Below are positions 11,178-45,104 of a stretch of DNA of 51,635 nt, piece by piece. The stretch spans positions 1 through 51,635 of the IMG/VR virus record IMGVR_UViG_3300038825_000578. One strand, 5' to 3'. The notes under the pieces are model-generated. The model ran no database searches and had not been told where the DNA came from. It saw only the letters and a list, made by a program, of their open reading frames with translations. A program made the position numbers and the translations under genes. Position 1 is the first letter of the stretch. Each line of letters starts with the position of its first letter. This DNA is from a virus.

Positions 11178-11504
11178 TTATGTTATCTCCAAAACGCTGA
11201 TAATTATGTGTAAATCATTAGCGTTTTGAGCTGTTGCTTTAATTATTTCTGACTCTTTTGCCACCAGTGTGCTAGTTAATATTTCAGCAGATGTTTTAGC
11301 TGCAATTGACTTGTCTTTTTCTAATGAAAACACAGCATCAGAACTGTCTGTCAATGTTAAGGTCAACGTACAAGCATTAGATGCATCATCATTAGAAACT
11401 CTTATTGACTTGATTATTGACGTGGTAGCTGTCGGCACAGTATAAACTGTAGTAGCATTTGTCGTTGTTAAATCTACTTTATAATTTGTGTATGTATTAG
11501 CCAT
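11178..11504 (-). CDS. Small beta-rich virion protein, paralogue of 19587..19934
   Basis: 108 residues, Thr/Ser-rich beta pattern. Begins MANTYTNYKVDLTTTNATTV and ends IISVLEIT. The gene at 19587 begins MANTF, has the same internal phrase (VYTV..TT) and ends SIMEIT, so the two are paralogues flanking the fibre region. The fold is probably a small beta-sandwich such as a decoration or fibre-accessory protein; that is inference. The start follows the TAG of the 56-residue gene at 11505. Confidence 0.7.
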   Translation of the reverse strand: MANTYTNYKVDLTTTNATTVYTVPTATTSIIKSIRVSNDDASNACTLTLTLTDSSDAVFSLEKDKSIAAKTSAEILTSTLVAKESEIIKATAQNANDLHIIISVLEIT

Positions 11505-11675
11505 CTACGATAAAAACCAAGTAAACCTTTCGTCATCTTCTCGTAATGTTTCTGGAGTATAAGTATTATTTAGTAAAAATATCAATTGATCCAATGTTTG
11601 TATCAATGTGTTTTGTTGTTGTTGACTATACTCTGGTGTAGCCTGGGGTAATCTAGGTATTTGTATTTTAGACAT
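11505..11675 (-). CDS. Small conserved phage protein, 56 aa
   Basis: ATG 11675 overlaps the TAA of the tail-nozzle-like gene (TAATG) and the TAG at 11505 directly abuts the ATG of the next gene, so the frame fills the gap exactly. Sequence: a Gln run (YSQQQQNTLIQTLDQL), then LLNNTYTPETLREDDERF and a WFLS C-terminus. I recall proteins with this pattern at the same place in marine phages. Mostly helical; probably a small structural partner of the nozzle protein. Confidence 0.7.
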   Translation of the reverse strand: MSKIQIPRLPQATPEYSQQQQNTLIQTLDQLIFLLNNTYTPETLREDDERFTWFLS

Positions 11676-13543
11676 TATGCTCCTCTCATTCCGTCTGGTT
11701 TAATATCTAATCGTAACGTTCCATATCTCCAATTATCATCAACAGCATCACTAGCAACTCTTACAGATATTTGTCTACCACGTATTCTTGTATCTTTTTT
11801 AGTTGTTGATGTTGTAATATTAAAAGATCCATGAGTTGTTTGTGAAGCAGATGGATATGGTCTAGTTTTTATTGTTAAATCTACAGTTCCAGATTGTGCT
11901 TTAAAATCAGGAATCATTCTACTAATAGACATAAAATTATCACCATCAGCTATGTCAATATCTCCTGATTCTACGTGAGCATTCATAGCAGCTCCATCAT
12001 CATTAGAACCAGTCTCATGTAAATGTATAAAAGTTCTACCTGCTTTTAAACCAGTAATAGTGCTTATAGTGGCTGTAGTATCAGTTGATTTAAATTCAGC
12101 TGCATAAGGATTATCGTAAGTTCCTCTGTCTGCCCAAGATGTTCTAGATAAAGTTCCTACATACCAAAGATTTTCTGCATAATTATAAAATACTACTCTA
12201 TCTATTTGTTGTGAATTAGCAGAAGCATAAAACCACATAACTTCATTGTAATCAGTATTTGCTGCACAAAATATATCTTGTTTAGCATTTACATTTAAAT
12301 CATCAAAAACATAGTCTTGAACACTACATGGTATTTTTTGCACTGCACCATCAAATAAGAAGAAAGAGTCAGTGCCCATCCAAAAGGATACACCACCTAC
12401 ATCTACTGCTGCATTTAAGCCAATACAACCACAAGCAGAACCTAATTGATTAAAACCAAAGGTAAGTGGTGGACCTATAAACTGCATTTGATATAAAGCT
12501 GTATCTGTCCATATTAGAACAGCACCTCTAGATCTTACTGCTGTTTGTATAAAGTTACCATCCACCAATCTTTTCGATCCTGCTGTATTAGTTGCCGTTG
12601 GTGTCCAAACATTTTGATCTTCTTGACCTGACCATCTTAAAAACATGTTGTCTTGTGTAGAAGATGTACCTATTGTTGTTTCTGTACCAAAACAAATGAC
12701 ATGTCGATCATCACCTGACACTAACATAAATCTACTTTTTGTGGGTGCATTAGATACATTGGTAGTTGAAGATCTATTTGATGATAATCCACTTGATGTA
12801 TCCCAATAGAATAATCCACCATTAAATTGTAAAGCTAATACGTCTTCACCCCAGTTATCGAGAGCCCACTTACCAGATTCTAACAAAACACCCTCAGCTC
12901 CAGTAAGTCCTTCTCTTGTTGTATTCCAAGTGGATGCACCGTATGTAGAGGCACCCCAACCATAACCAAATATAGATACTGCTGAACCTGTATTTATTTG
13001 ATATGTTCCGTTGGCCGTGGCTCCTGTCGCATCAGAACTAGCCGCAGCTTTTGCTTCTATGGTAAAAGTATTAGCATTAGGAACTGTTAGTATTTCAAAC
13101 TCTCCCTCAAGATTAGCAGCAGATATACCACCTACTGCGCCACTAACACTTGCAATAGTTACAAAGTCACCGATCAACGCACCATGAGATGAGTCTGTTA
13201 CAGTAACTGTAGTGCTACCATTAGTAGTTTCAAATTGTGTAATATTACCTGTGCCTGTAGCTCTGATAGGAGTTATATCAGCGTATGAGTTTTCAGAGTA
13301 AGCGTATAGTTTTTTGTTAGTGCCATAGATAGCATACTTAACACCACTTAAATCACTATAAGTTAAAATAGCTCTAGTAGCACCTACCAGTGCATCACTA
13401 GTTACTTTTTCCCAACCACCTAATTTTTCTGGTAAACCATATCGAAAGCGAACATTATCACAATCTACCCAACGTCCTTCTGCACCGTACTCGGTATTTT
13501 GTTTATCTATTCCTGGTGCTATTTGCAGTTTTGATAAAGGCAT
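11675..13543 (-). CDS. Tail nozzle / packaged-DNA-stabilisation-like protein
   Basis: 622 residues with the plan of podovirus nozzle proteins (P22 gp10 or T7 gp12 type): an N-terminal segment that introduces a beta-propeller (GRWVDCDNVRFRYGLPEKLG), repeated WTDTALYQMQ, FWMGTDSFFLFDG and VMWFYAS propeller blades, and a C-terminal beta domain with GRQISVRVASDAVDDNWRYG. A Thr/Gly-rich insert (GNITQFETTNGSTTVTVTDS) sits near residues 100-185. These proteins form the distal tail tube and keep packaged DNA in place. The neighbours are fibre genes, as expected. Family placement is by recognition, without a search. Confidence 0.78.
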   Translation of the reverse strand: MPLSKLQIAPGIDKQNTEYGAEGRWVDCDNVRFRYGLPEKLGGWEKVTSDALVGATRAILTYSDLSGVKYAIYGTNKKLYAYSENSYADITPIRATGTGNITQFETTNGSTTVTVTDSSHGALIGDFVTIASVSGAVGGISAANLEGEFEILTVPNANTFTIEAKAAASSDATGATANGTYQINTGSAVSIFGYGWGASTYGASTWNTTREGLTGAEGVLLESGKWALDNWGEDVLALQFNGGLFYWDTSSGLSSNRSSTTNVSNAPTKSRFMLVSGDDRHVICFGTETTIGTSSTQDNMFLRWSGQEDQNVWTPTATNTAGSKRLVDGNFIQTAVRSRGAVLIWTDTALYQMQFIGPPLTFGFNQLGSACGCIGLNAAVDVGGVSFWMGTDSFFLFDGAVQKIPCSVQDYVFDDLNVNAKQDIFCAANTDYNEVMWFYASANSQQIDRVVFYNYAENLWYVGTLSRTSWADRGTYDNPYAAEFKSTDTTATISTITGLKAGRTFIHLHETGSNDDGAAMNAHVESGDIDIADGDNFMSISRMIPDFKAQSGTVDLTIKTRPYPSASQTTHGSFNITTSTTKKDTRIRGRQISVRVASDAVDDNWRYGTLRLDIKPDGMRGA

Positions 13544-14568: not shown

Positions 14569-14961
14569 CTAATCTGTTGAACCTGGCTCTACATCAACCC
14601 AGGTTATTGTTTGTGAATCATCCACTTCGTTCCAAATAAAGAAGTTTGGATCACCCACACTAAAATTAATAACATTCTGAAATGCTTCACCAAAAGCAGT
14701 TTCATCACCTAATCCTACACTAATTTGTCCTGCTGTGGTAGGACTAATATTTGCAGATGCTGATACAGTCTCAGTTCCTATAGTAAAACTTGGTGCTCCA
14801 GCAGTAGAAGGAGACACAGAGGCACTTGCGGTTACAGTTTCATCTCCTAGATTAACAGAAAAAGATAAGCCACTAACAAAAGGCGATCCTACGTTTTGAA
14901 CACCACCGCCTCTAACAGAGGCTATGGCAAACTCAGATATGGTGCCGTGGCCAAATAACAT
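14569..14961 (-). CDS. Small repeat-containing fibre/structural protein
   Basis: 130 residues. After MLFGHGTISEFAIAS there are about two and a half copies of a 20-25 residue beta repeat (NLGDETVTASASVSPSTAG, TIGTETVSASANISPTTAG, GLGDETAFGEA). The C-terminus reads IWNEVDDSQTITWVDVEPG. The N-terminal phrase is shared by small tail proteins of many marine phages. Probably a short fibre or baseplate-like component; function not known. Confidence 0.7.
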   Translation of the reverse strand: MLFGHGTISEFAIASVRGGGVQNVGSPFVSGLSFSVNLGDETVTASASVSPSTAGAPSFTIGTETVSASANISPTTAGQISVGLGDETAFGEAFQNVINFSVGDPNFFIWNEVDDSQTITWVDVEPGSTD

Positions 14962-14963
14962 TA

Positions 14964-15263
14964 TTAACCTTTTGGATTATCACTTCTTACTTTATTGTAA
15001 GCTGTTTTGTAAGCATCCCATTTTGTAGAATCTCCACCTATTTCTTTTTCACAATATGCTTCAGCAAAATCTTGTAAAGAAGGATACTGTGCAAGACGAT
15101 TTATTTTGTATAAATCTGGATCACTCCAAGCTTCTACCTTTGTCCAATCAATAGTTACAGGTTTATTATTAGCATCCACTGCCACTATATCTGTTTTGCT
15201 GTTTCCATTTATTGAAACTGCATCGCTGTGAATTGCTCTAATTGCTTTGTGTAAATCAGCCAT
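14964..15263 (-). CDS. Small partner of fibre gene, possible fibre chaperone (99 aa)
   Basis: Helical, charged protein coupled by TAATG to the fibre gene at 15263..16255. Contains VTIDWTKVEAWSDPDLYKIN and ends AYNKVRSDNPKG. The last segment matches the end of the protein at 18361 (DKVRNDNPKE), which also follows a fibre gene. Small genes after fibre genes in tailed phages are often fibre-assembly chaperones or XkdW-like proteins, so I infer that role. No signal peptide or catalytic motif. Confidence 0.68.
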   Translation of the reverse strand: MADLHKAIRAIHSDAVSINGNSKTDIVAVDANNKPVTIDWTKVEAWSDPDLYKINRLAQYPSLQDFAEAYCEKEIGGDSTKWDAYKTAYNKVRSDNPKG

Positions 15264-16255
15264 TATGCTAGTACCTCCATAACTGTAATTGATTGAACTG
15301 TTCTTGCAAACTGAGAATTGTCAGTATCATCATGTGTTCTACCATAATACAAAGTGCCTCCACCTACAGCAGCACCTTTAACTTTGTACGTGACCTGAGA
15401 TGTCGTATTAGGACTGTCTAAACACATTATATTAGGATAGAGCAAAATAGTATTTCCTATAGTTCCCCCATAGGCACCAGAACCAAAAGCTCTTGATCTA
15501 TTACTTGAAGCATCGCCTAAAGCAATTTGTGTTGAATCTCTAAATAATTGTCCAGAAATAGCATTATCACTTGAATGAATACTAAGATTTACATTAACAA
15601 GGATTTTACTACTAGTAGCAGAAGGTGTAATATTTACACTTAATCCTGTAACATCAACAAAACTAGATGAAGTAGTCGAAAACACATCTGTTTTCAAAGT
15701 TTGTATAACTTGTCCTATTTTTCCTTGTCCTATAGAAGTATACTCAGTTCCTGCTAAATCTAAAACATCACAGTGTAATGTGCCATCAAAATATCCATCT
15801 TTAAATTCTTTTGATGAAGCTCCAATATCCACATCATTATCTGTGGTAGGTTCTATAACACCGTCTTTTATACTAAATTGATCTGTGCCACCTATCTTAA
15901 CATCTATCTGGTCATCTGTATCAGCATGAAGACTTGTATCACCGTCTGTATCTAAAATTAATTCATTACCATTTAAGTCAGAATCTAAAGGACCACCTAC
16001 TGCACCAGATATCTCTACAATAAAAATACTGTCTCCACTTGCAGGAGCTGTAGTAAAAGAAATTTGAGATCCACCACTGGCCAAAGTAAAATCAGTGCCT
16101 GGTCTTTGAATTACACCATTTTTAGATACGATTAATTGTGCAGGCGAACCTACTTGTGTGCCTAAATTAAAATCTGTGGTGGAACTATTAAAAGTTCCTG
16201 TAAATCCTAAATCTGAAAAAGTCCCGCTTTCTATTGATTTTCCTATATATGGCAT
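15263..16255 (-). CDS. Tail fibre, receptor-binding candidate (330 aa)
   Basis: Three parts are visible. Residues 1-90 (MPYIGKSIESGTF..., LIVSKNGVIQRPG, APASGDSIFIV) form an attachment domain shared with the fibre at 18701. The middle (TDNDVDIGASSKEFKDGYFD) is a shaft repeat also present in the fibre at 19952. The C-terminus (QTLKTDVFSTTSSSFVDVTG, then ITPSATSSKILVNVNLS) is a tip domain shared with the small fibre at 17833. So this protein looks built from modules shared with three neighbours, consistent with recombination among fibre genes. Confidence 0.8.
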   Translation of the reverse strand: MPYIGKSIESGTFSDLGFTGTFNSSTTDFNLGTQVGSPAQLIVSKNGVIQRPGTDFTLASGGSQISFTTAPASGDSIFIVEISGAVGGPLDSDLNGNELILDTDGDTSLHADTDDQIDVKIGGTDQFSIKDGVIEPTTDNDVDIGASSKEFKDGYFDGTLHCDVLDLAGTEYTSIGQGKIGQVIQTLKTDVFSTTSSSFVDVTGLSVNITPSATSSKILVNVNLSIHSSDNAISGQLFRDSTQIALGDASSNRSRAFGSGAYGGTIGNTILLYPNIMCLDSPNTTSQVTYKVKGAAVGGGTLYYGRTHDDTDNSQFARTVQSITVMEVLA

Positions 16256-16256
16256 A

Positions 16257-16436
16257 TTATTCTCCTGGATCCGTTATTGTATTACCCGCGGCAACCCACA
16301 GAAGAATCTCTTTGTAATGTCTGTTTTCTGTGTCGTGTGGTACAGACATTATGTCTGTACTATCAGTTAAAGTTACCGTGTAAAATTTATTCCAGATTCC
16401 GTCCTGATATTTTTTTGTTACTGTTGCAATATTCAT
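16257..16436 (-). CDS. Small partner of fibre gene (59 aa)
   Basis: The frame from ATG 16436 to TAA 16257 exactly fills the gap between two fibre genes. It starts immediately after the stop of the 375-residue fibre. Sequence features: MNIATVTKKYQDGIWNKFYT, then SVPHDTENRHYKEILLWV and an acidic tail ending TDPGE. The WV..GN.I.DPG ending resembles small proteins found after tail fibres in other phages. It occupies the second-gene slot of a fibre-partner cassette. A perfect 10-bp-arm inverted repeat lies inside it (16340-16360). Confidence 0.75.
   Translation of the reverse strand: MNIATVTKKYQDGIWNKFYTVTLTDSTDIMSVPHDTENRHYKEILLWVAAGNTITDPGE
16340..16360. repeat. Perfect inverted repeat, 10-bp arms, inside the 59-aa gene
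   Basis: GTACAGACAT and ATGTCTGTAC are separated by one base. As RNA it would be a tight hairpin; as DNA a two-fold symmetric protein site. It lies inside a coding frame and has no T tract, so it is not a terminator. It could be a recombination or cruciform site between fibre cassettes; that is speculation. Confidence 0.7.
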
Positions 16437-17564
16437 TTATAACTCCGCATCCAATTTTAAATAACATGAAGATACAGCGTTCATCATATATCCCGGATCA
16501 TCTACATGAGATGACATATCTGTTCCTCCTGTATCTACTAGAGTGAATTGTCCAGATTTATTAGTTCCTCCAAAAGTGACAGCACTACCATAATTTGTAT
16601 TAATACTACTGGTAATAACTCTCCAGTGATCTGCACTTCCAGAAGAAGAAGAGGATAAAGAGGGAGTTGCTCTAAACTCCACAGGCCACAACATAGTCAT
16701 TCTAAAAGTATCATTATCATGAATATGACCCCCCATAAGATCTTTTAAAGATTCAGATGCATCCATGTAAATTTGAAAATATCTCTTACATCTTCTTAAG
16801 TTACTATCACGACTCTCAAAAGGAAAATCAGGTATTGTGTTAGTATCAAACTCACCGATTTCCATTTGAACTCCTGTAATGTACCAATTATTATCAGTGC
16901 TATCTGCATTATTAACTTGACCTACTGCAACATTTGCATTGGTATGTGATTGCCATGTTGTTGCTAATGTTCCAGAAGTACGATTAGTGCCTGTTGTTAT
17001 CCACCAAGTAATTCTAAAACCTTCACCGTTATTATCGTCTATTACTCCAGTAGTGTCTGCAGCAAAAACTACTGTTTTCTTTTCCCATGTGTTGGTTGTG
17101 TTGACAGTGTAAGTCTGTGCTTGACTTCTTGCATCATCATTTTGATAAATCCAAATAGCATGAGTTCCTGTTTTTGTGGCATTTACCCAAAAAGATAAAG
17201 TAATTTTTTTAGCACTTGAAGTGCCATATCTTAACAACTGTAAATCTTGTGCTTCTAATAAAGTTTGAACTCCTAAAGCATCATCTGCATCTGGAGAACC
17301 TGCCGCTGTGGTACAATCCATTTTTAAAGATGTTGTAAAACCTTCACCAGTAGGCACATCTGTTGATTGAGTTTGTGTAAATCTAGCTGATGGACTACCT
17401 TCAACGACAAGTTTCCATCTATCACAAGTATTATATCCTGAAGTTGCTCCTAGACCTGTGGCGGAAGTCGCTCGCTGAGCCACGGACATATCTCCATTAA
17501 TAATTAGAGGAGTTACGATTCTACTTCTATCTAATCCCCCATCTGTTACTTTTGTAATGCTCAT
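16437..17564 (-). CDS. Tail fibre with carbohydrate-binding-like domain (375 aa)
   Basis: After a short attachment segment (MSITKVTDGGLDRSRI) the protein reads INGDMSVAQRATSATGLG ... TCDRWKL, a signature of phage fibre proteins with a carbohydrate-binding-like beta-sandwich. The sandwich continues through ITLSFWVNATKTGTHAIWIY and WYITGVQMEIGEFDTN, ending FPFESRDSNLRRCKRYFQ, the usual end of this domain. The remaining 110 residues form a separate tip. It probably contacts surface polysaccharide of the host. Confidence 0.8.
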   Translation of the reverse strand: MSITKVTDGGLDRSRIVTPLIINGDMSVAQRATSATGLGATSGYNTCDRWKLVVEGSPSARFTQTQSTDVPTGEGFTTSLKMDCTTAAGSPDADDALGVQTLLEAQDLQLLRYGTSSAKKITLSFWVNATKTGTHAIWIYQNDDARSQAQTYTVNTTNTWEKKTVVFAADTTGVIDDNNGEGFRITWWITTGTNRTSGTLATTWQSHTNANVAVGQVNNADSTDNNWYITGVQMEIGEFDTNTIPDFPFESRDSNLRRCKRYFQIYMDASESLKDLMGGHIHDNDTFRMTMLWPVEFRATPSLSSSSSGSADHWRVITSSINTNYGSAVTFGGTNKSGQFTLVDTGGTDMSSHVDDPGYMMNAVSSCYLKLDAEL

Positions 17565-17572
17565 CTATACTC

Positions 17573-17833
17573 CTATTTACCTATCAATGCCTTAATTTCT
17601 TCATCAGTTAAACCAAGGTTTTTAAGTTTAGTTTTGCCTGATGCCTCTTTACTTTCATCATTTGTTTTTTTCGTTGCTTCAGCAGTTTCATATTCAGATA
17701 TTTTTGCATTAATATCCTCTGCTGATATTGGTGTAGTTCCATCTAACCATTCAATTTTATTAACATTATTATCAGTGATCTGACACTTAGCATCAGGATT
17801 AATATATTGTATTACTTTTAAAATATCAGCCAT
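17573..17833 (-). CDS. Small partner of fibre gene (86 aa)
   Basis: Coupled by TAATG to the 174-residue fibre upstream. Contains KIEWLDGTTPISAEDINAKI, a pattern found in XkdW-like and small tail proteins that follow fibre genes, then a charged helical C-terminus (ATKKTNDESKEASGKTKLKN) and a final helix ending DEEIKALIGK. Proposed as a fibre chaperone or short fibre accessory by position. Confidence 0.68.
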   Translation of the reverse strand: MADILKVIQYINPDAKCQITDNNVNKIEWLDGTTPISAEDINAKISEYETAEATKKTNDESKEASGKTKLKNLGLTDEEIKALIGK

Positions 17834-18357
17834 TATCCTTCTACCTCAATTAATGTCCAATGTGATTTGTAATCAGAAATTCCTAATCTCCAGTTTGGAT
17901 TACCATCATAATTTGCAACAGAAATACCTACATGAACAGCACTTGTAGTTGAAGGTGAATGTAAATAATTAAATACTAAACACCCATGTTCTTCTGTGGT
18001 TCCTGCTGCACTATTATAGTTATAAGCACCAAATCTAACTTGTTGATAATCAGTTGAGCTAGTTGATGCTGCGCTACCCGTGTTAATTCTTAATTTAAAA
18101 GCTGCATTTTGGCCAGCAGAGTTACTATCCTCTGTTTGTGCAGGACCACTAAAAAGCACTAATATTTTACTTGAAGTTGAACTTGGTGTTATATTAGCAA
18201 CATAATTACTGATCATTACCTCACTAGACGTGTTTCCAGATTGATTTGATGTTATTGTAGTGCCAACAACTTGAAGTATTTTACCAAATCCTGTGGCTTT
18301 AGCTGCAGTGACTGCATCATCTGCTATACCATTTGTTCCTATTGTACTAAGTGCCAT
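17833..18357 (-). CDS. Short tail fibre / receptor-binding tip protein (174 aa)
   Basis: A short attachment segment (ALSTIGTNGIADDAVTAAK) is followed by a beta-rich tip domain with ITPSSTSSKILVLF, shared with the C-terminal domain of the fibre at 15263. The end reads NPNWRLGISDYKSHWTLIEV. No shaft repeats, so it may be a minimal fibre or a tip that trimerises onto another protein. The phrase GIADDAVTAAK recurs in phage fibre linkers (compare SSIADDAVESEHL in the protein at 18701). Confidence 0.75.
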   Translation of the reverse strand: MALSTIGTNGIADDAVTAAKATGFGKILQVVGTTITSNQSGNTSSEVMISNYVANITPSSTSSKILVLFSGPAQTEDSNSAGQNAAFKLRINTGSAASTSSTDYQQVRFGAYNYNSAAGTTEEHGCLVFNYLHSPSTTSAVHVGISVANYDGNPNWRLGISDYKSHWTLIEVEG

Positions 18358-18360
18358 GTT

Positions 18361-18699
18361 TTATTCCTTTGGGTTGTCATTACGAACTTTATCACAATGA
18401 TCCTTAAAAGTTGTTGTCCCATTTTTTTGATCCTTATAAATCATTTCTAGTTGATCCTCAAAAGGTAAGTATTCTGTTCTTCTTTTTGCATCTACAACTG
18501 CATTATTTTCTAAAGTTATTGCTTGAGAAGATAAAGCGTTTAATTGTGAGTCTGTGGGCTTGACTTTGTCTTTTGCATTCCATTCTTTAATGTAAGGATT
18601 ACTAACTCCACCTATCATATCATCTTGAACTTTTACTTCGGATGTAAAATCTGGTGTCCTACCTAAATACGCTTCTATTTTTCTAATTAAATTACTCAT
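18361..18699 (-). CDS. Small partner of fibre gene, XkdW-like (112 aa)
   Basis: Helical protein with PTDSQLNALSSQAITLENNA in the middle and RRTEYLPFEDQLEMIYKDQK then NGTTTFKDHCDKVRNDNPKE at the end. The R..YP..DQLD..Y.D..NGT..W pattern is typical of XkdW-like and fibre-assembly proteins that follow tail fibre genes. It begins a few bases after the stop of the C1q-like fibre at 18701. I infer an assembly role. Confidence 0.72.
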   Translation of the reverse strand: MSNLIRKIEAYLGRTPDFTSEVKVQDDMIGGVSNPYIKEWNAKDKVKPTDSQLNALSSQAITLENNAVVDAKRRTEYLPFEDQLEMIYKDQKNGTTTFKDHCDKVRNDNPKE

Positions 18700-18700
18700 T

Positions 18701-19585
18701 CTAAACCCCTATTAATCTAAACCCTTGAAAGTAAGATGTATCCGATTTAAATGTGTGATTAGTACCATCATACATAAAACCATATATTTCAACATAATCA
18801 TCTGCATCCATGTTTACTATAGCGGCAAGACTTGGAGCATTTGGTTGATCATTTTGAAAATACTGAGATGTTAAAAAATAACCATTTTGATAAAGTTGAC
18901 CTCCATTAAAATGAAGTGCTAGTCTAACTGCTCTGCCATTTGCCGCAGATGCTATTCTAAGACCGGCAGTGATAAGGTATTTTCCTGCCACAGTTGGAGT
19001 AAAACGATAATTTGTACTGTGGTCATATTTTCCATCTGAATCAAAAACTTCACTATCAAAAGCCACTTTAGTTGTTGCTCCAGCACTAAACGTACCCTTG
19101 TCTCCAGAGAGTTTTGCAGAAAAAGCAGGCGTACTATAAATGTGAGAAAAATCCAATCTTTTTATTGTTCCTGCATCAGATACAAGTATTTCATCAGTTG
19201 ATGCAGGTTCAGCCGCTAATTCTGTTTGTCCTGATATAATGTTATCATTTAAGTGTTCACTTTCTACTGCATCATCTGCTATAGAACTAGCTGTTACAGA
19301 ATCATTAGAAGGATTAATTGTTCCTACTGATTTAGCTTGATGAATTACATAAATATTATTTGTGCCAGAAGGAGGTGCTCCAGTAAATGTAAGTGTAGTT
19401 CCGCTTATGCTATAAGCAGAGTTTGGATCTTGACGAACATTTTCTACAAAGACCTCTATGTCAAATACTGAACTAGGTGCAATGTCTAATGTAAAAGCTG
19501 TTGTGCTTCCGTCACCATTAAACCTCTTACCTTGTAGAGATTGAAAAGTATTCCTAGTATCTAAAGGTGTACCAATAAAAGGCAT
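18701..19585 (-). CDS. Tail fibre with C1q/TNF-like C-terminal domain (294 aa)
   Basis: The N-terminus (MPFIG...FNGDGSTTAFTLD, FTGAPPSGTNNIYVI) is the same attachment domain as in the fibre at 15263. A linker with SSIADDAVESEHLNDNIISG follows. The C-terminal 140 residues (FSAKLSGDKGTFSAGATTKV, HSTNYRFTPTVAGKYLI, DDYVEIYGFMYDGTNH, SYFQGFRLIGV) have the order of strands of a C1q-like jelly roll, a trimeric fold used by phage receptor-binding tips. The match is by pattern only. Confidence 0.8.
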   Translation of the reverse strand: MPFIGTPLDTRNTFQSLQGKRFNGDGSTTAFTLDIAPSSVFDIEVFVENVRQDPNSAYSISGTTLTFTGAPPSGTNNIYVIHQAKSVGTINPSNDSVTASSIADDAVESEHLNDNIISGQTELAAEPASTDEILVSDAGTIKRLDFSHIYSTPAFSAKLSGDKGTFSAGATTKVAFDSEVFDSDGKYDHSTNYRFTPTVAGKYLITAGLRIASAANGRAVRLALHFNGGQLYQNGYFLTSQYFQNDQPNAPSLAAIVNMDADDYVEIYGFMYDGTNHTFKSDTSYFQGFRLIGV

Positions 19586-19586
19586 C

Positions 19587-19934
19587 TTATGTTATCTCCA
19601 TTATTGACACAGCAATGTCAGCTGCACCAGATGCCGTTAATTTCAAGACATCCGTGGTTTCCATTACTACTTTATTTCCTGCTAAAAGTTCTAGAGTACC
19701 GCCAACAGGGATAGGTGCATTAGTAACTAGCTCAACATCTTGATTCGCTTCGTTATTTGCTCCTGCTCTGTTAGAAGTATCTGAACTTAAAGTAACTGTA
19801 GCAGTTATCTGTCCTGTTGTTGTATTACCTATCATTACACCAAGAACTACAGTTGTTGTAGAACTAGCAACAGTGTAAATAACATCTTCACTAGTAACTC
19901 CTGCTTTTGTTACACATTTAAAAGTATTAGCCAT
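19587..19934 (-). CDS. Small beta-rich virion protein, paralogue of 11178..11504
   Basis: 115 residues. MANTFKCVTKAGVTSEDVIY, then a beta-rich body (ATVTLSSDTSNRAG, VGGTLELLAGNKVVMETTDV) and the ending DIAVSIMEIT. Comparison with the protein at 11178 shows the same start, spacing and ending, so these are diverged copies. The two copies sit at either edge of the fibre cluster. Possibly a head decoration or fibre-attachment protein. Confidence 0.7.
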   Translation of the reverse strand: MANTFKCVTKAGVTSEDVIYTVASSTTTVVLGVMIGNTTTGQITATVTLSSDTSNRAGANNEANQDVELVTNAPIPVGGTLELLAGNKVVMETTDVLKLTASGAADIAVSIMEIT

Positions 19935-21741: not shown

Positions 21742-22425
21742 TTATGGACTTGTTGATTTTATGGGCAATCTAATTGCACCATGCATGTACTCATCTCTTC
21801 GATGCCTTCCTTGCTGTTCTATCGCTAATTCTTGTATGGCTCTCTGATATGACTGTTCGTATAATTGCAGCATTTCTGCTGGTCCCTTTAAAAATTTAAA
21901 GGCTTCTGCAAGGCATCCATACAATAACGCACTTGGAGCATTACTGCCTAACCAAGACGAAGTATTTGTACTAGATAACCTTGTTGGTAATCTTGTAATT
22001 CCCAGTTCTACATTATATGCAAGATCTGGTGTAGGCGCAACTATTAATGAGTTATGATCCCACCAGGCCCAATAAACGGGTGTGCCTGTTGATGTTCTAT
22101 CTGGAGCATATTCTGTAATAAATGAAACATCTCTTTGCTCTAACATAGTTCTTGTTGGCGTGCCTGAAGCTGGAAAAATGTGCATTGTTCTTATAGTTCC
22201 TAAAGATGTAGGATCAGGTGATGATCCACCTGGTAATGATACGAAAGGATTACTTGCAGTTAAATTTGCAGATTGATTGGATTTAAATACATCAATATCT
22301 ACATCTCTGAATATTCTATTTTCTGCATGTTCTATAAAATCATTTACACGCACATCTGTTAAAACATCAGAACTTACTTCTGTATAATCTCTAATTTGTG
22401 TTACTAATTCTGAATATGTAGTCAT
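21742..22425 (-). CDS. Head-tail adaptor protein (T7 gp11-like)
   Basis: 227 residues. Begins MTTYSELVTQIRDYTEVSSD and continues VNDFIEHAENRIFRDVDID, a pattern seen in phage adaptor proteins that join portal to tail nozzle. The end (LYEQSYQRAIQELAIEQQG) is a helix as in these adaptors. It sits between two other connector candidates and the fibre genes. Family-level call by pattern; precise ring position unknown. Confidence 0.72.
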   Translation of the reverse strand: MTTYSELVTQIRDYTEVSSDVLTDVRVNDFIEHAENRIFRDVDIDVFKSNQSANLTASNPFVSLPGGSSPDPTSLGTIRTMHIFPASGTPTRTMLEQRDVSFITEYAPDRTSTGTPVYWAWWDHNSLIVAPTPDLAYNVELGITRLPTRLSSTNTSSWLGSNAPSALLYGCLAEAFKFLKGPAEMLQLYEQSYQRAIQELAIEQQGRHRRDEYMHGAIRLPIKSTSP

Positions 22426-22751
22426 TATGAAATACTCACGGTCACTCCACTAACGGAAGCTTTTACAATTGTTATATTTTGTTTTTGTGGAGACATTTGA
22501 TTATTTTGATCAAAAAAAGTTTTAGCTCCTAGTAATACTTGCACAGGTTCTGATCTGTCTGGTCTTGCATTTTTTAATGCTTCAGCATCTGCCCTGTGTG
22601 TAGATGGATTATCTTCTTGTGGATGTTCTGGTTCAAATTCAGACTTATGTACAAATACACCATCATGCTCTTCGATCATTTCACTATATGGAAATGCGAA
22701 TCCACTTCTATCTGATATTGCTTTAGCGTATTTACCTCTTGCTGTGCCCAT
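22425..22751 (-). CDS. Conserved small structural protein (108 aa)
   Basis: Begins GTARGKYAKAISDRSGFAFP, then VFVHKSEFEPEHPQ and ALKNARPDRSEPVQV. This combination recurs in marine phage genomes between connector genes. The C-terminal segment (QNITIVKASVSGVTVSIS) is beta-type. TAATG coupling at both ends places it in the connector group. Function unknown; probably a minor virion component. Confidence 0.72.
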   Translation of the reverse strand: MGTARGKYAKAISDRSGFAFPYSEMIEEHDGVFVHKSEFEPEHPQEDNPSTHRADAEALKNARPDRSEPVQVLLGAKTFFDQNNQMSPQKQNITIVKASVSGVTVSIS

Positions 22752-23419
22752 TACATAACTCCTACATCTGGAACAATTTTAATACTTGCTCTTGTGCTAT
22801 CTTCAGATGATGCTCTTTGCCATTCATCTTCATAAACTTGTTTTAACAATTGTATTCTATCAGGTGCTTTTTTCATAGCTATGTAATAAGAAAGTCCTGA
22901 TACTAAACAAGGAAAAAATCTAAAAGGTACTTCTGGATTGTTTGTATATTCACCTGCATCTGCAATTCTAGTCATCGCATAATACTTAAATGTATCAGCT
23001 GCATCGGGTGTTGGATATACATACAACTTAGGAGTAATAGTTCTCTCTATATAAAATTGAGTGGGAGAAGCTGACGTAGATTTTTTGGATATGTTTAAAT
23101 ACTCAGCTCTACTGATTCTTTCTATTTGTCTGTCAACAGTAGAATCACTGGCTTCTGTAACAACAGCAGATAATACATCAACTAAATCAGTATCTAAATC
23201 ATAAGAAGATGTTCCTGACGCTAGAGTTTTTGTTCTTTGTTCTATTGTCCAAAGATTTAAACCTCTATTAGCCCACTCAGCAAAAAGTAAATTAAGAGAT
23301 CTTCTTGCAGTTTTAAGATCATATCCTGACCTCACATAAAGGCCACATCTTTCATATGACTCTGCTATGACCTCTTCGATTGTAAGAGTAAATGCGTTAG
23401 TACCTGAGTATGTAGGCAT
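22751..23419 (-). CDS. Connector / head-completion protein (222 aa)
   Basis: TIEEVIAESYERCGLYVRSG, YDLKTARRSLNLLFAEWANR and GLNLWTIEQRTKTL are well-conserved phrases of a podovirus connector protein of the gp4/gp11 type. The C-terminus has LKQVYEDEWQRASSEDSTRA. It probably binds beneath the portal. Two such connector-like genes (this and 21742) frame the 108-residue protein. Confidence 0.74.
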   Translation of the reverse strand: MPTYSGTNAFTLTIEEVIAESYERCGLYVRSGYDLKTARRSLNLLFAEWANRGLNLWTIEQRTKTLASGTSSYDLDTDLVDVLSAVVTEASDSTVDRQIERISRAEYLNISKKSTSASPTQFYIERTITPKLYVYPTPDAADTFKYYAMTRIADAGEYTNNPEVPFRFFPCLVSGLSYYIAMKKAPDRIQLLKQVYEDEWQRASSEDSTRASIKIVPDVGVM

Positions 23420-39190: not shown

Positions 39191-39264
39191 TGGACTCGTG
39201 AGCGAGATTCGAACTCGCATAATCGTATTTGCAGTACGACACATAACCTTTCTGTCATCACGAG
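39191..39264 (-). tRNA. tRNA-Cys (anticodon GCA)
   Basis: Complete cloverleaf: acceptor CTCGTGA/TCACGAG (7 bp), D arm ACA..TGT with GG in the loop as in bacterial tRNA-Cys, anticodon stem TCGTA/TACGA with loop CTGCAAA, T arm GCGAG-TTCGAAT-CTCGC, discriminator T and encoded CCA. U73 is the cysteine identity base. It lies between two boxes of the repeat array, one starting just past its CCA end. Confidence 0.95.
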
Positions 39265-40796: not shown

Positions 40797-40950
40797 ATGG
40801 CACACCATCTTCGTTTTTTATGATGCTTTTTGAGAGTATCTTGCCAAAAACATTAAACCAAAAATGCTTAAACACAGGTGACTTAGCTGCGTGCATAGCT
40901 TTCAATGCTCTCTGTTGACGTTCAATACTCAATGTTATTTCTTTGTCCAT
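40774..40950 (-). CDS. Small hypothetical protein (58 aa)
   Basis: ATG 40950 is preceded by GAAAGGAGATATGTT, a good ribosome binding site lying inside the end of the methyltransferase gene. Content: SIERQQRALKAMHAAKSPVF, then HFWFNVFGKILSKSIIKNED. Overlaps the methyltransferase end by 16 bases and the nuclease start by 23 bases in other frames. Function unknown. Confidence 0.7.
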   Translation of the reverse strand: MDKEITLSIERQQRALKAMHAAKSPVFKHFWFNVFGKILSKSIIKNEDGVPYDSKTRN

Positions 40951-41888
40951 AACATATCTCCTTTCTTAATACTCATTCCAATATAATACGGTATCATTGG
41001 AACTAAACTGTTACCTAATGATTTAAGTCTGTCCACCCTTTTGGGTACCCCATGAGCCACTCGACCCACGTTGGGTTCAGACTGCCACCACTGTGACCAG
41101 CCAATCTGCCCTTCTTCTTGGCTTTCTCGTAATTCACATTGGGACCAGCGTCCCTCCAGTCTCTCGCTGTCGGTGTTGGCATCATTGCTACTTTCTCCTC
41201 CAGCTTTCCTCTCTGTGTTCCTCTGTTCTGTATGTTCTCTGTCTTCTCTGCCATAGCTGCTGACGCCCTGGGTGTTGGCCACATCAGATTCGGATGTCTG
41301 ACTTGGTCGTTCAAACTGATGGGCATTTTCTTTTCCAATTTCATTTTCATCCTGGCTTCCGAACAAGGTCCCCTCATGCTGTGTGCATCCGGAGTGCGCC
41401 AATATCCAGACCCTTTCTCTTTGGTGGTTTGCACCGATGCTCGAAGCTGAAATACTAAACGCTCTTGCGGAGTAACCTTCACTCTCCAAGTTCTCAAGTA
41501 CGGTGTCGAGACCGAGTTTAATGTGTCCACTAACATTTTCTCCAATAACCCAAGTCGGCCTGAGTTCTTTGACAAGTCTAAACATTTCTGGCCAGACGTG
41601 TCTCGGATCTTGCTCACCTTTTTGACGTCCAGCAATACTGAATGGTTGACAGGGATATCCTCCTGTGATGATGTCGATTTTAGTATGTCCATTTGCTGAT
41701 AATCTTTCACTATTTAACTCCTTTACATCGTCATAAATTGTAACCCACGGCCAATGCTTACGTAAAACTTTTTGACAATATGGATCAAAATCACAAAATG
41801 CTACAGTCTCAAAATAACCTGTAGCTTCTAGTCCTAAACTAAATCCTCCTATACCTGAAAACAAATCTAAATGATTAAGTTTTGTCAT
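40935..41888 (-). CDS. dcm: DNA (cytosine-5) methyltransferase
   Basis: 317 residues with all main m5C motifs: I DLFSGIGGF (residues 8-16, SAM binding), IV GGYPCQPFS with catalytic C80, VI GENVS (E117), VIII HQRERVWILA, and X-type RLKSLGNSLVP near the end. The target-recognition stretch between VIII and X is Ser/Glu/Arg-rich. It may protect phage DNA from restriction or alter transcription. From about 41536 to 41015 a second long frame on the same strand also looks protein-coding (separate entry), and this stretch is GC-richer than the genes around it. The start overlaps the upstream gene by 14 bases. Confidence 0.93.
   Translation of the reverse strand: MTKLNHLDLFSGIGGFSLGLEATGYFETVAFCDFDPYCQKVLRKHWPWVTIYDDVKELNSERLSANGHTKIDIITGGYPCQPFSIAGRQKGEQDPRHVWPEMFRLVKELRPTWVIGENVSGHIKLGLDTVLENLESEGYSARAFSISASSIGANHQRERVWILAHSGCTQHEGTLFGSQDENEIGKENAHQFERPSQTSESDVANTQGVSSYGREDREHTEQRNTERKAGGESSNDANTDSERLEGRWSQCELRESQEEGQIGWSQWWQSEPNVGRVAHGVPKRVDRLKSLGNSLVPMIPYYIGMSIKKGDMLWTKK
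41015..41536 (-). CDS. Overprinted frame inside the methyltransferase gene (173 aa)
   Basis: Same strand, different frame from the methyltransferase. The open frame reaches 41710; I take ATG 41536, which has GGAG four bases upstream. Phrases MLVDTLNSVSTPYLRTWRVK, VTPQERLVFQLRASVQTTKE, SLNDQVRHPNLMWPTPRAS, MMPTPTARDWRDAG and SLNPTWVEWLMGYPKGWTDL are what I know from the C-terminal part of many proteins annotated as phage methyltransferases. The bases that encode GVPKRVDRLKSL in one frame encode GYPKGWTDLNH in the other. Translation is unproven, but the protein-like sequence over about 170 codons is hard to explain by chance. Confidence 0.5.
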   Translation of the reverse strand: MLVDTLNSVSTPYLRTWRVKVTPQERLVFQLRASVQTTKEKGSGYWRTPDAHSMRGPCSEARMKMKLEKKMPISLNDQVRHPNLMWPTPRASAAMAEKTENIQNRGTQRGKLEEKVAMMPTPTARDWRDAGPNVNYEKAKKKGRLAGHSGGSLNPTWVEWLMGYPKGWTDLNH

Positions 41889-44429: not shown

Positions 44430-45104
44430 TTACTTATCTATCCCTTTACCGACATCTTGTCCAGGAACCTTGGATCGTAAGTGTATATTAAATGCCATCG
44501 ATCTACGCTCCCCTTCACTACGAAACGGATAGACCTGGTGTAATAACCAACTAGGAAATAAATATAAATCACCTATCGTAGGTTTACACATCCATGAATG
44601 TTTACTAAATGTATTTGGCACACTACCAACAAACTCTAAACAACCCACACTAGGATAATGATCCTCTCTTCGATATTCTTCTTCGTAGTTAGGTGGTAAC
44701 TTTAAAAACAAAACACCTGACAGCTGCGAATCATGTATATGAACAGGATTAAAGTCACCTGCGTACTGACTAACAACCCATGACGCATAAGTCATGTTGG
44801 TATTTTCGGGATTAAATTGATTACCGACAGTCTTCATGATATACTCCGTCACCAATTTATTTACAATTGTTTCTAAAGACTTTACTTCACCTAACGATAA
44901 CGCTACTTCTTTCTTCACATTACCAGCCAGGTTAGCACTATAATCCAAATCTTTTGATCTTTTATCATCATCAAGTATCGCATTCGCTTTACTATTAATA
45001 ATGTCTATTATATTTTGCGGTACAGAACTTTTCATGACCCGTGGTCCGAAAGGCGTGTACAAGTCATAACTAATCTGTTGTTCTCTAACTTTTTCTGTCA
45101 TCAT
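44430..45104 (-). CDS. 2-oxoglutarate/Fe(II)-dependent oxygenase (2OG-FeII_Oxy_5-like)
   Basis: 224 residues. Double-stranded beta-helix core: NPVHIHDSQLSGVLFLKLP with the H-x-D iron ligands, KPTIGDLYLFPSWLLHQVYP with the distal histidine, and GERRSMAFNI with the arginine that binds 2-oxoglutarate. Such phage enzymes hydroxylate proteins, DNA bases or small molecules; the substrate here cannot be told. AAGGAG lies close before a double ATG at 45104/45101. Common in marine phages. Confidence 0.85.
   Translation of the reverse strand: MMTEKVREQQISYDLYTPFGPRVMKSSVPQNIIDIINSKANAILDDDKRSKDLDYSANLAGNVKKEVALSLGEVKSLETIVNKLVTEYIMKTVGNQFNPENTNMTYASWVVSQYAGDFNPVHIHDSQLSGVLFLKLPPNYEEEYRREDHYPSVGCLEFVGSVPNTFSKHSWMCKPTIGDLYLFPSWLLHQVYPFRSEGERRSMAFNIHLRSKVPGQDVGKGIDK

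Follow-up and report, generated by a model that had tools for sequence, protein, structure and literature searches.

The 51,635 bases of viral DNA analysed in this paper (the window; 36% GC) form one IMG/VR virus record. Four fibre genes stand there one after another, with a small partner gene after each. This raises the question of why one phage should carry four such pairs, and which of the parts, fibre tip, fibre N-terminus and small protein, belong together. Most probably, the locus is a host-recognition array of four N-terminally defined fibre slots, each with a swappable tip and its own trans-acting chaperone.

The array, its phage and the fibre modules

All eight ORFs of the preliminary description are present as it placed them. 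They lie on the minus strand and start with ATG; plausible RBSs are present, and neighbouring genes abut closely or overlap. The fibre of slot 1, F1 (18701..19585), joins a gp17-like N-terminal module, NF1 (approximately residues 1-95), to a C1q-like tip and matches the tail fibre family phrog_18673 (3.1e-15). Its partner P1 (18361..18699) is an XkdW-type probable assembly chaperone (PF09636 XkdW, 1.1e-7). In slot 2, F2 (17833..18357) has a short MALSTIGTN N-terminus and an ITPS tip with a predicted TNF-like lectin fold, and the partner P2 (17573..17833; family s6) has an ITPS-type N-half and a different C-terminus. Slot 3 consists of F3 (16437..17564), with a short MSITKVTD N-terminus and a T4-type tip region, and the 59 aa partner P3 (16257..16436; family s3). 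The fibre of slot 4, F4 (15263..16255), has the gp17-like module NF4 (approximately residues 1-88, recognised by the NF4 profile), a repeat region and an ITPS tip, and is followed by P4 (14964..15263), whose N-half is of the ITPS type like that of P2 and whose C-terminus, KVRSDNPK, is P1-like. P1, P2 and P4 (1e-5) match phrog_9114, and P3 matches phrog_20370. Two conserved minus-strand genes border the array: one at 19587..19934 on the F1 side (phrog_1276, 1.1e-8), of a kind that precedes NF1 fibres, and one at 14569..14961 on the F4 side, which has 68 relatives and adjoins the array end. Additionally, the former has a small paralogue at 11178-11504 (phrog_1276; 28% identity, 1.6e-9), so that the two paralogues flank the array on either side.

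The window also encodes a P22-gp10-like stabilisation protein (11675-13543; phrog_3287, 1.3e-96), an ejection-type protein, a family A DNA polymerase and a terminase. By its gp10-like protein, the window comes nearest among named phages to Phage DSL-LC04 and to the pelagiphages HTVC023P and HTVC027P (41-52% identity), and P1 relatives occur in 12 named phage records, every one a pelagiphage. Named phages gave no nucleotide match to the window, and a search of cellular genomes found no P1 relatives. Judged from its genes, the source is a podovirus-like marine phage and probably a pelagiphage (SAR11 virus); a SAR11 host is likely because the closest gp10-like relatives and all 12 P1-relative records point to pelagiphages. 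SAR11 phages are among the most abundant marine viruses, and what they bind is little known. Elsewhere in the window, a tRNA-Cys gene (39191-39264) and genes for a C-5 cytosine DNA methylase and a 2OG-Fe(II) oxygenase (40935-41888 and 44430-45104) were observed. The genes at 21742-22425 and 22751-23419 both match the tail-protein family phrog_10775, suggesting a duplicated tail gene.

The N-termini of F1 and F4 are homologous (1.9e-6) and represent two related, distinct modules. Against the T7 gp17 N-terminal domain (PF03906), F4 scored 15.2 bits, under the cut-off of 25.2, and three relatives matched, with values up to 9.8e-5. As F4 falls below the cut-off and few relatives match, NF1 and NF4 are called gp17-like here and, by this test, not members of that family. 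F2 and F3 have short N-termini only, and F2 is without a long N-terminal module.

According to the preliminary description, the four fibres end in different tip types. There are three tip families among them and not four, as F2 and F4 carry homologous tips (34% identity, 1.9e-12). The C1q-like nature of the F1 tip was confirmed by its family and not by the single protein: alone, the F1 tip is below the Pfam C1q (PF00386) cut-off (17.6 vs 23.7 bits), whereas the profile of its family, A5, finds solved C1q-domain structures down to 1.6e-16, indicating a sequence relationship to C1q. The AlphaFold model of F2 (pLDDT 80) resembles the TNF-like lectins PLTL and BC2L-C (Z 12.7 and 11.9; against 9ib7, Z 12.7 and rmsd 2.3 over 127 residues, with approximately 10% identity), and the predicted fold is a TNF-like jelly-roll. 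Although T0 and T2 tips were both found to be C1q/TNF-like by separate tests, their profiles do not align mutually. For F3, the "carbohydrate-binding-like" tip assigned earlier was not recovered; no Pfam domain was matched, and its match is the tail fibre family phrog_4492 (3.9e-44). Influenza haemagglutinin matches were taken as coiled-coil-like noise. Several receptor specificities are the natural reading of a C1q-like tip, TNF-like-lectin tips and the F3 tip, all of them with putative binding.

Pairing of tips and partners

Five scans of viral contigs gave approximately 350 loci. A script called their genes, which were then grouped by clustering into tip (T) families and partner (s) families. 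After deduplication there were 315 tip-neighbour pairs, and the mutual-information test used 272 of these. Tip family and partner family shared 1.81 bits, compared to a mean of 0.56 and a maximum of 0.72 in 2000 shuffles; the association of N-terminal class with partner was weak, at 0.36 bits (shuffled mean 0.18, maximum 0.26). The partner follows the tip, not the N-terminus. All 14 deduplicated T4-type tips had an adjacent partner, which was of the s3/s10 kind in 13 cases; the P3 family s3 is exclusive to T4-type tips, and the same fibre-partner pair occurs in HTVC100P and HTVC115P. As evidence to the contrary, 8/88 C1q-type tips were without an adjacent partner; several of these occupy slot 3, directly ahead of NF4.

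Peptidase_S74 is an intramolecular chaperone, and the S74 ending was confirmed by Pfam in 6 fibres. None of 13 S74 fibres had an adjacent partner, compared to 127/136 fibres with T0, T2, T4 or T10 tips (p 3e-13). The same exclusion can be seen within NF1 fibres (0/8 for S74 vs 30/31 for others) and within NF4 fibres (0/5 vs 36/37). Tips bearing S74 would carry their own chaperone and need no partner. The pairing rule thus predicts which tips could be expressed alone (S74) and which need co-expression; additionally, it finds fibre tips and their helpers among "hypothetical" genes and marks the border between tip and N-terminus.

Partner families looked mixed because their N-halves follow the tip and their C-termini do not. 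N-half clusters were uniform or nearly so with respect to the tip, for C1q-type (72/72), ITPS-type (T2; 42/46) and T4 tips (7/7) as well as in the other main clusters (14/14, 12/12 and 6/6), whereas the main C-terminal cluster spans 74 C1q-type and 19 ITPS-type tips. Within the window, P2 and P4, which serve both ITPS tips, have the same N-half type, and P4 shares its C-terminus with P1. The ending KVR[SN]DNPK, correctly reported before on two partners (KVRNDNPKE in P1, KVRSDNPKG in P4), is explained by partner C-termini being common to several tip families. Such a division suggests that the N-half recognises the tip and that the C-terminal part may be generic, perhaps trimerising. Chimaeric partners in HTVC203P (L365:7119-7460) and HTVC010P (L359:4872-5165), in which an ITPS-type N-half is fused to the C-terminus of another partner family, are evidence of partner domain shuffling.

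Among the window partners, P1 alone matches XkdW (PF09636; 31.9 bits, cut-off 24.6), as do 3/19 partners scanned. Its AlphaFold model (pLDDT 95) has the XkdW fold: residues 2-69 align with 2hg7 XkdW (Z 5.6, rmsd 2.6 over 60 residues), and the next match has a Z of 3.1. Foldseek alone gave no significant match for P1. In fold and sequence family, P1 is therefore like PBSX XkdW (PF09636, 2hg7), for which the portions of the literature covered gave no established function. The s1-family partners match the Pfam family Phage_tail_APC, and P2 and P3 matched no Pfam chaperone family. Weak Pfam matches below the cut-offs, of P4 to AcrIC5 and of P2 to SRP68/HlyD, were rejected as chance.

The partners are matched to the tip and lie directly downstream of the fibre, the position of Tfa, gp38 and gp25-type proteins. 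Since the partner follows the tip, S74 fibres are without a partner and the N-halves track the tip, the most likely role of the partners is that of assembly chaperones specific to one tip type, similar in kind to Tfa and Pam3 gp25, which would act by binding the tip. In Pam3, the N domain of gp25 binds the tip, conserved C-terminal helices trimerise, and the chaperone is absent from the virion (PMC9608196). The Pam3 gp24-gp25 pair likewise has a TNF-like fibre tip followed by its chaperone, with the same N/C division of labour as the partner halves here; however, Pam3 is a myophage with one fibre and one chaperone, and P1 is smaller and has the XkdW fold (PMC9608196).

It is improbable that the partners are instead adhesins, capping the fibre tip and binding the receptor like gp38 of T2 or S16. 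As small ORFs directly downstream of fibres, they do stand where gp38-type adhesins are encoded. Yet the tips themselves have lectin or C1q-type folds, P1 has the XkdW fold, and an adhesin would leave S74 fibres without theirs. Moreover, the partner was more conserved than the tip in 92-99% of comparisons for 3/4 pairings, which argues against an adhesin role; in the T2-s0 pairing this tendency was weak (59%). In favour of the adhesin reading, some chaperones, such as Mu Tfa, are retained at the tip, where they may contact the receptor (PMC10579305).

Exchange of cassettes between genomes

The earlier proposal that this is a cassette-exchange locus is strongly supported, as whole cassettes and blocks of them swap in near-identical backbones. 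Contig L002 has almost the backbone of the window (g19952 100%, gp10-like protein 99%), but is without F2/P2 and F3/P3; other cassettes are found there, and the tip of F1 with P1 stands on a short inner fibre. In L003, F1 to F3 have 90-99% protein identity to the window, compared to 49% and 78% for two upstream genes. In L273, F2 and P2 are 95% and 98% identical, F4/P4 79-86% and backbone genes 69-97%, whereas F1, P1 and F3 have only 47%, 30% and 38%. In L344, F4 and P4 (84% and 94%) adjoin a g14569 of 65%. Such a single cassette, 95-98% identical between otherwise divergent genomes, demonstrates recent exchange. The proposal had been set against a layout invariant in all relatives: the number of slots is indeed nearly invariant, and their content varies between contigs.

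A DNA-conservation profile was made from loci not selected with P1. Matches pile up at the first ~95 codons of F1 (54-73 loci, a count that is favoured because the F1 start adjoins a gene used as query, which is not so for F2 and F4), the first 25 codons of F2 (15-19 loci) and the first 116 codons of F4 (15-27 loci), compared to 0-4 loci over most of the tips. An apparent DNA conservation at the P1 C-terminus came partly from selecting loci with P1 and was discounted once those loci were removed. The conserved fibre starts would be natural recombination joints, at which recombination may swap the cassettes, each made of a tip of putatively glycan-binding type and a small, probably trans-acting chaperone. 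Most of the relatives are metagenome assemblies, possibly chimeric, and the cultured isolates agree with them.

Movement of fibre-chaperone units between distant phages is known from Alteromonas phages (PMC10579305). In A5 and V22, fibre and cognate chaperone also travel as a unit, and the chaperone resembles intramolecular chaperones; however, these are DUF4376 chaperones in a single fibre-chaperone pair, with no multi-slot array (PMC10579305). Swapping of tips and helpers among ocean phages probably changes what the phage sticks to.

The four slots in related arrays

Approximately 200 related contigs of marine viruses have the same array design, as do nine cultured pelagiphages. Large and small genes alternate in complete arrays, which are bounded by the same neighbour genes, and typically an NF1 fibre comes first, two inner fibres with different short N-termini follow, and an NF4 fibre is last. 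Where an array contains NF1, that fibre stands first. With tandem runs of one tip family counted once, 26 of the 36 arrays having both NF1 and NF4 hold exactly two inner cassettes; four cassettes are therefore the rule. Five of the ten exceptions belong to a different group with the order NF1, run, NF4, run. An arrangement first regarded as unusual for one virion turns out to be common: a complete related array with any other number of cassettes is the exception, and the plan recurs in cultured pelagiphages.

By a simple rule, the inner fibres comprise one MA and one M[ST] start in 24/24 complete arrays. A hand-typed table of 26 arrays gave one of each in 26/26 (shuffled mean 13.2, maximum 24, with relatedness remaining in the shuffle). 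The two types occur in both orders (9 arrays one way, 17 the other), and C1q, ITPS, T4 and T1 tips are found on both. Among partial arrays only 8/16 fit the rule, several exceptions being in the T6-tip group, and the cultured group departs from it, using other slot-specific N-termini. The pairing of these N-termini suggests four distinct attachment or assembly positions, set by the NF1, MALS-type, M[ST]-type and NF4 modules; homologous recombination at conserved starts could give the same pattern.

This last account, in which fixed slot number and N-terminal pairing reflect shared descent with homologous recombination at conserved 5' ends and no docking code, is somewhat unlikely. Homologous exchange would preserve slots where fibre 5' ends are conserved in DNA, and shuffles do not remove relatedness; yet the order of inner types varies (9 vs 17 arrays) while one of each is kept, and in cultured phages of other groups, too, each slot has an N-terminus of its own. 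It is less likely still that the virion incorporates the NF1 and NF4 fibres only, the inner two being a silent tip store for recombination. The inner fibres are indeed without a gp17-like module, and tips move between inner and NF positions, as with the F1 tip and P1 in L002. However, the inner genes are intact with start signals and keep their partners, and for a mere store it would be needless to hold two inner cassettes (26 arrays) with each N-terminal type once (24/24). Under the preferred reading of four working slots, all four fibres would be present on each virion, and the number of distinct fibres per virion can be tested directly in cultured pelagiphages.

A comparable principle is known from the branched tailspike complex of Ackermannviridae, with up to four receptor-binding proteins that have conserved, mutually different N-termini and exchangeable C-termini, as set out in the portion of that report covered (PMC11414711). 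There, tailspikes are joined by XD/Gp10-like domains and that portion describes no partner genes, whereas the inner fibres here have short N-termini. General Pfam and PHROG matches of F1-F4 included no XD/Gp10-like docking domain.

Cultured phages carry the same parts. In HTVC100P, an NF1 fibre with a C1q tip has an XkdW-type partner, a T4 tip a P3-type partner and an ITPS tip a P2-type partner, and NF4 is joined to S74 without a partner. Other combinations of these parts were found in HTVC106P, 203P, 035P, 026P, 019P, 010P, 115P and 131P, indicating that the system extends across several pelagiphage groups, Autographiviridae among them.

Tip genes of the KLYGV type (T1) come either alone or in runs of exactly three paralogues, mostly with one Phage_tail_APC-type partner after them. 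Examples are L328, L085, L351, L065, L075 and others, and HTVC010P (L359:6319-8597) and HTVC019P (L360:7411-9567). Complete runs number 26 of three and 13 of one, with none of four; in L063, a broken triplet accounts for the only complete run of two and for one of the singles. On a tree, the paralogues tend to cluster by their position in the run (first, second or third), and a heterotrimeric tip is possible. Tipless NF4 or NF1 anchor modules followed by three consecutive tip genes were observed in HTVC115P (L362:6353-8401; C1q-type), L085, L351, L256 and L267.

Tentatively, a four-socket docking code may be considered, in which four mutually exclusive N-terminal plugs would seat swappable tips on one virion and prevent mixing of co-expressed trimers. 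One socket in relatives would then take one gene (homotrimer) or three paralogues with one common chaperone (obligate heterotrimer, cf. the A/B/C chains of human C1q).

Hypervariable islands of C1q and tail fibre genes with XkdW have been known since 2014 in marine phages including pelagiphages (PMC3909814). The portion of that study covered here likewise has C1q, tail fibre, XkdW and tail fibre assembly annotations and a conserved N-terminus with a variable C1q part, but says nothing on how tips pair with partners, on S74 fibres being without one, or on rules for slots and triplets. Searches of the open-access literature recovered no description of the tip-partner logic with its S74 exception, of the four-slot rule or of the one-or-three paralogue rule.

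Two unusual arrangements were also observed. In L259, a T6-type run of four follows NF4. An apparent minimal array occurs in L113 (L113:2-1441), where a single fibre with an NF1 start and an F4-like shaft stands directly before g14569, representing a deletion or an assembly artefact.
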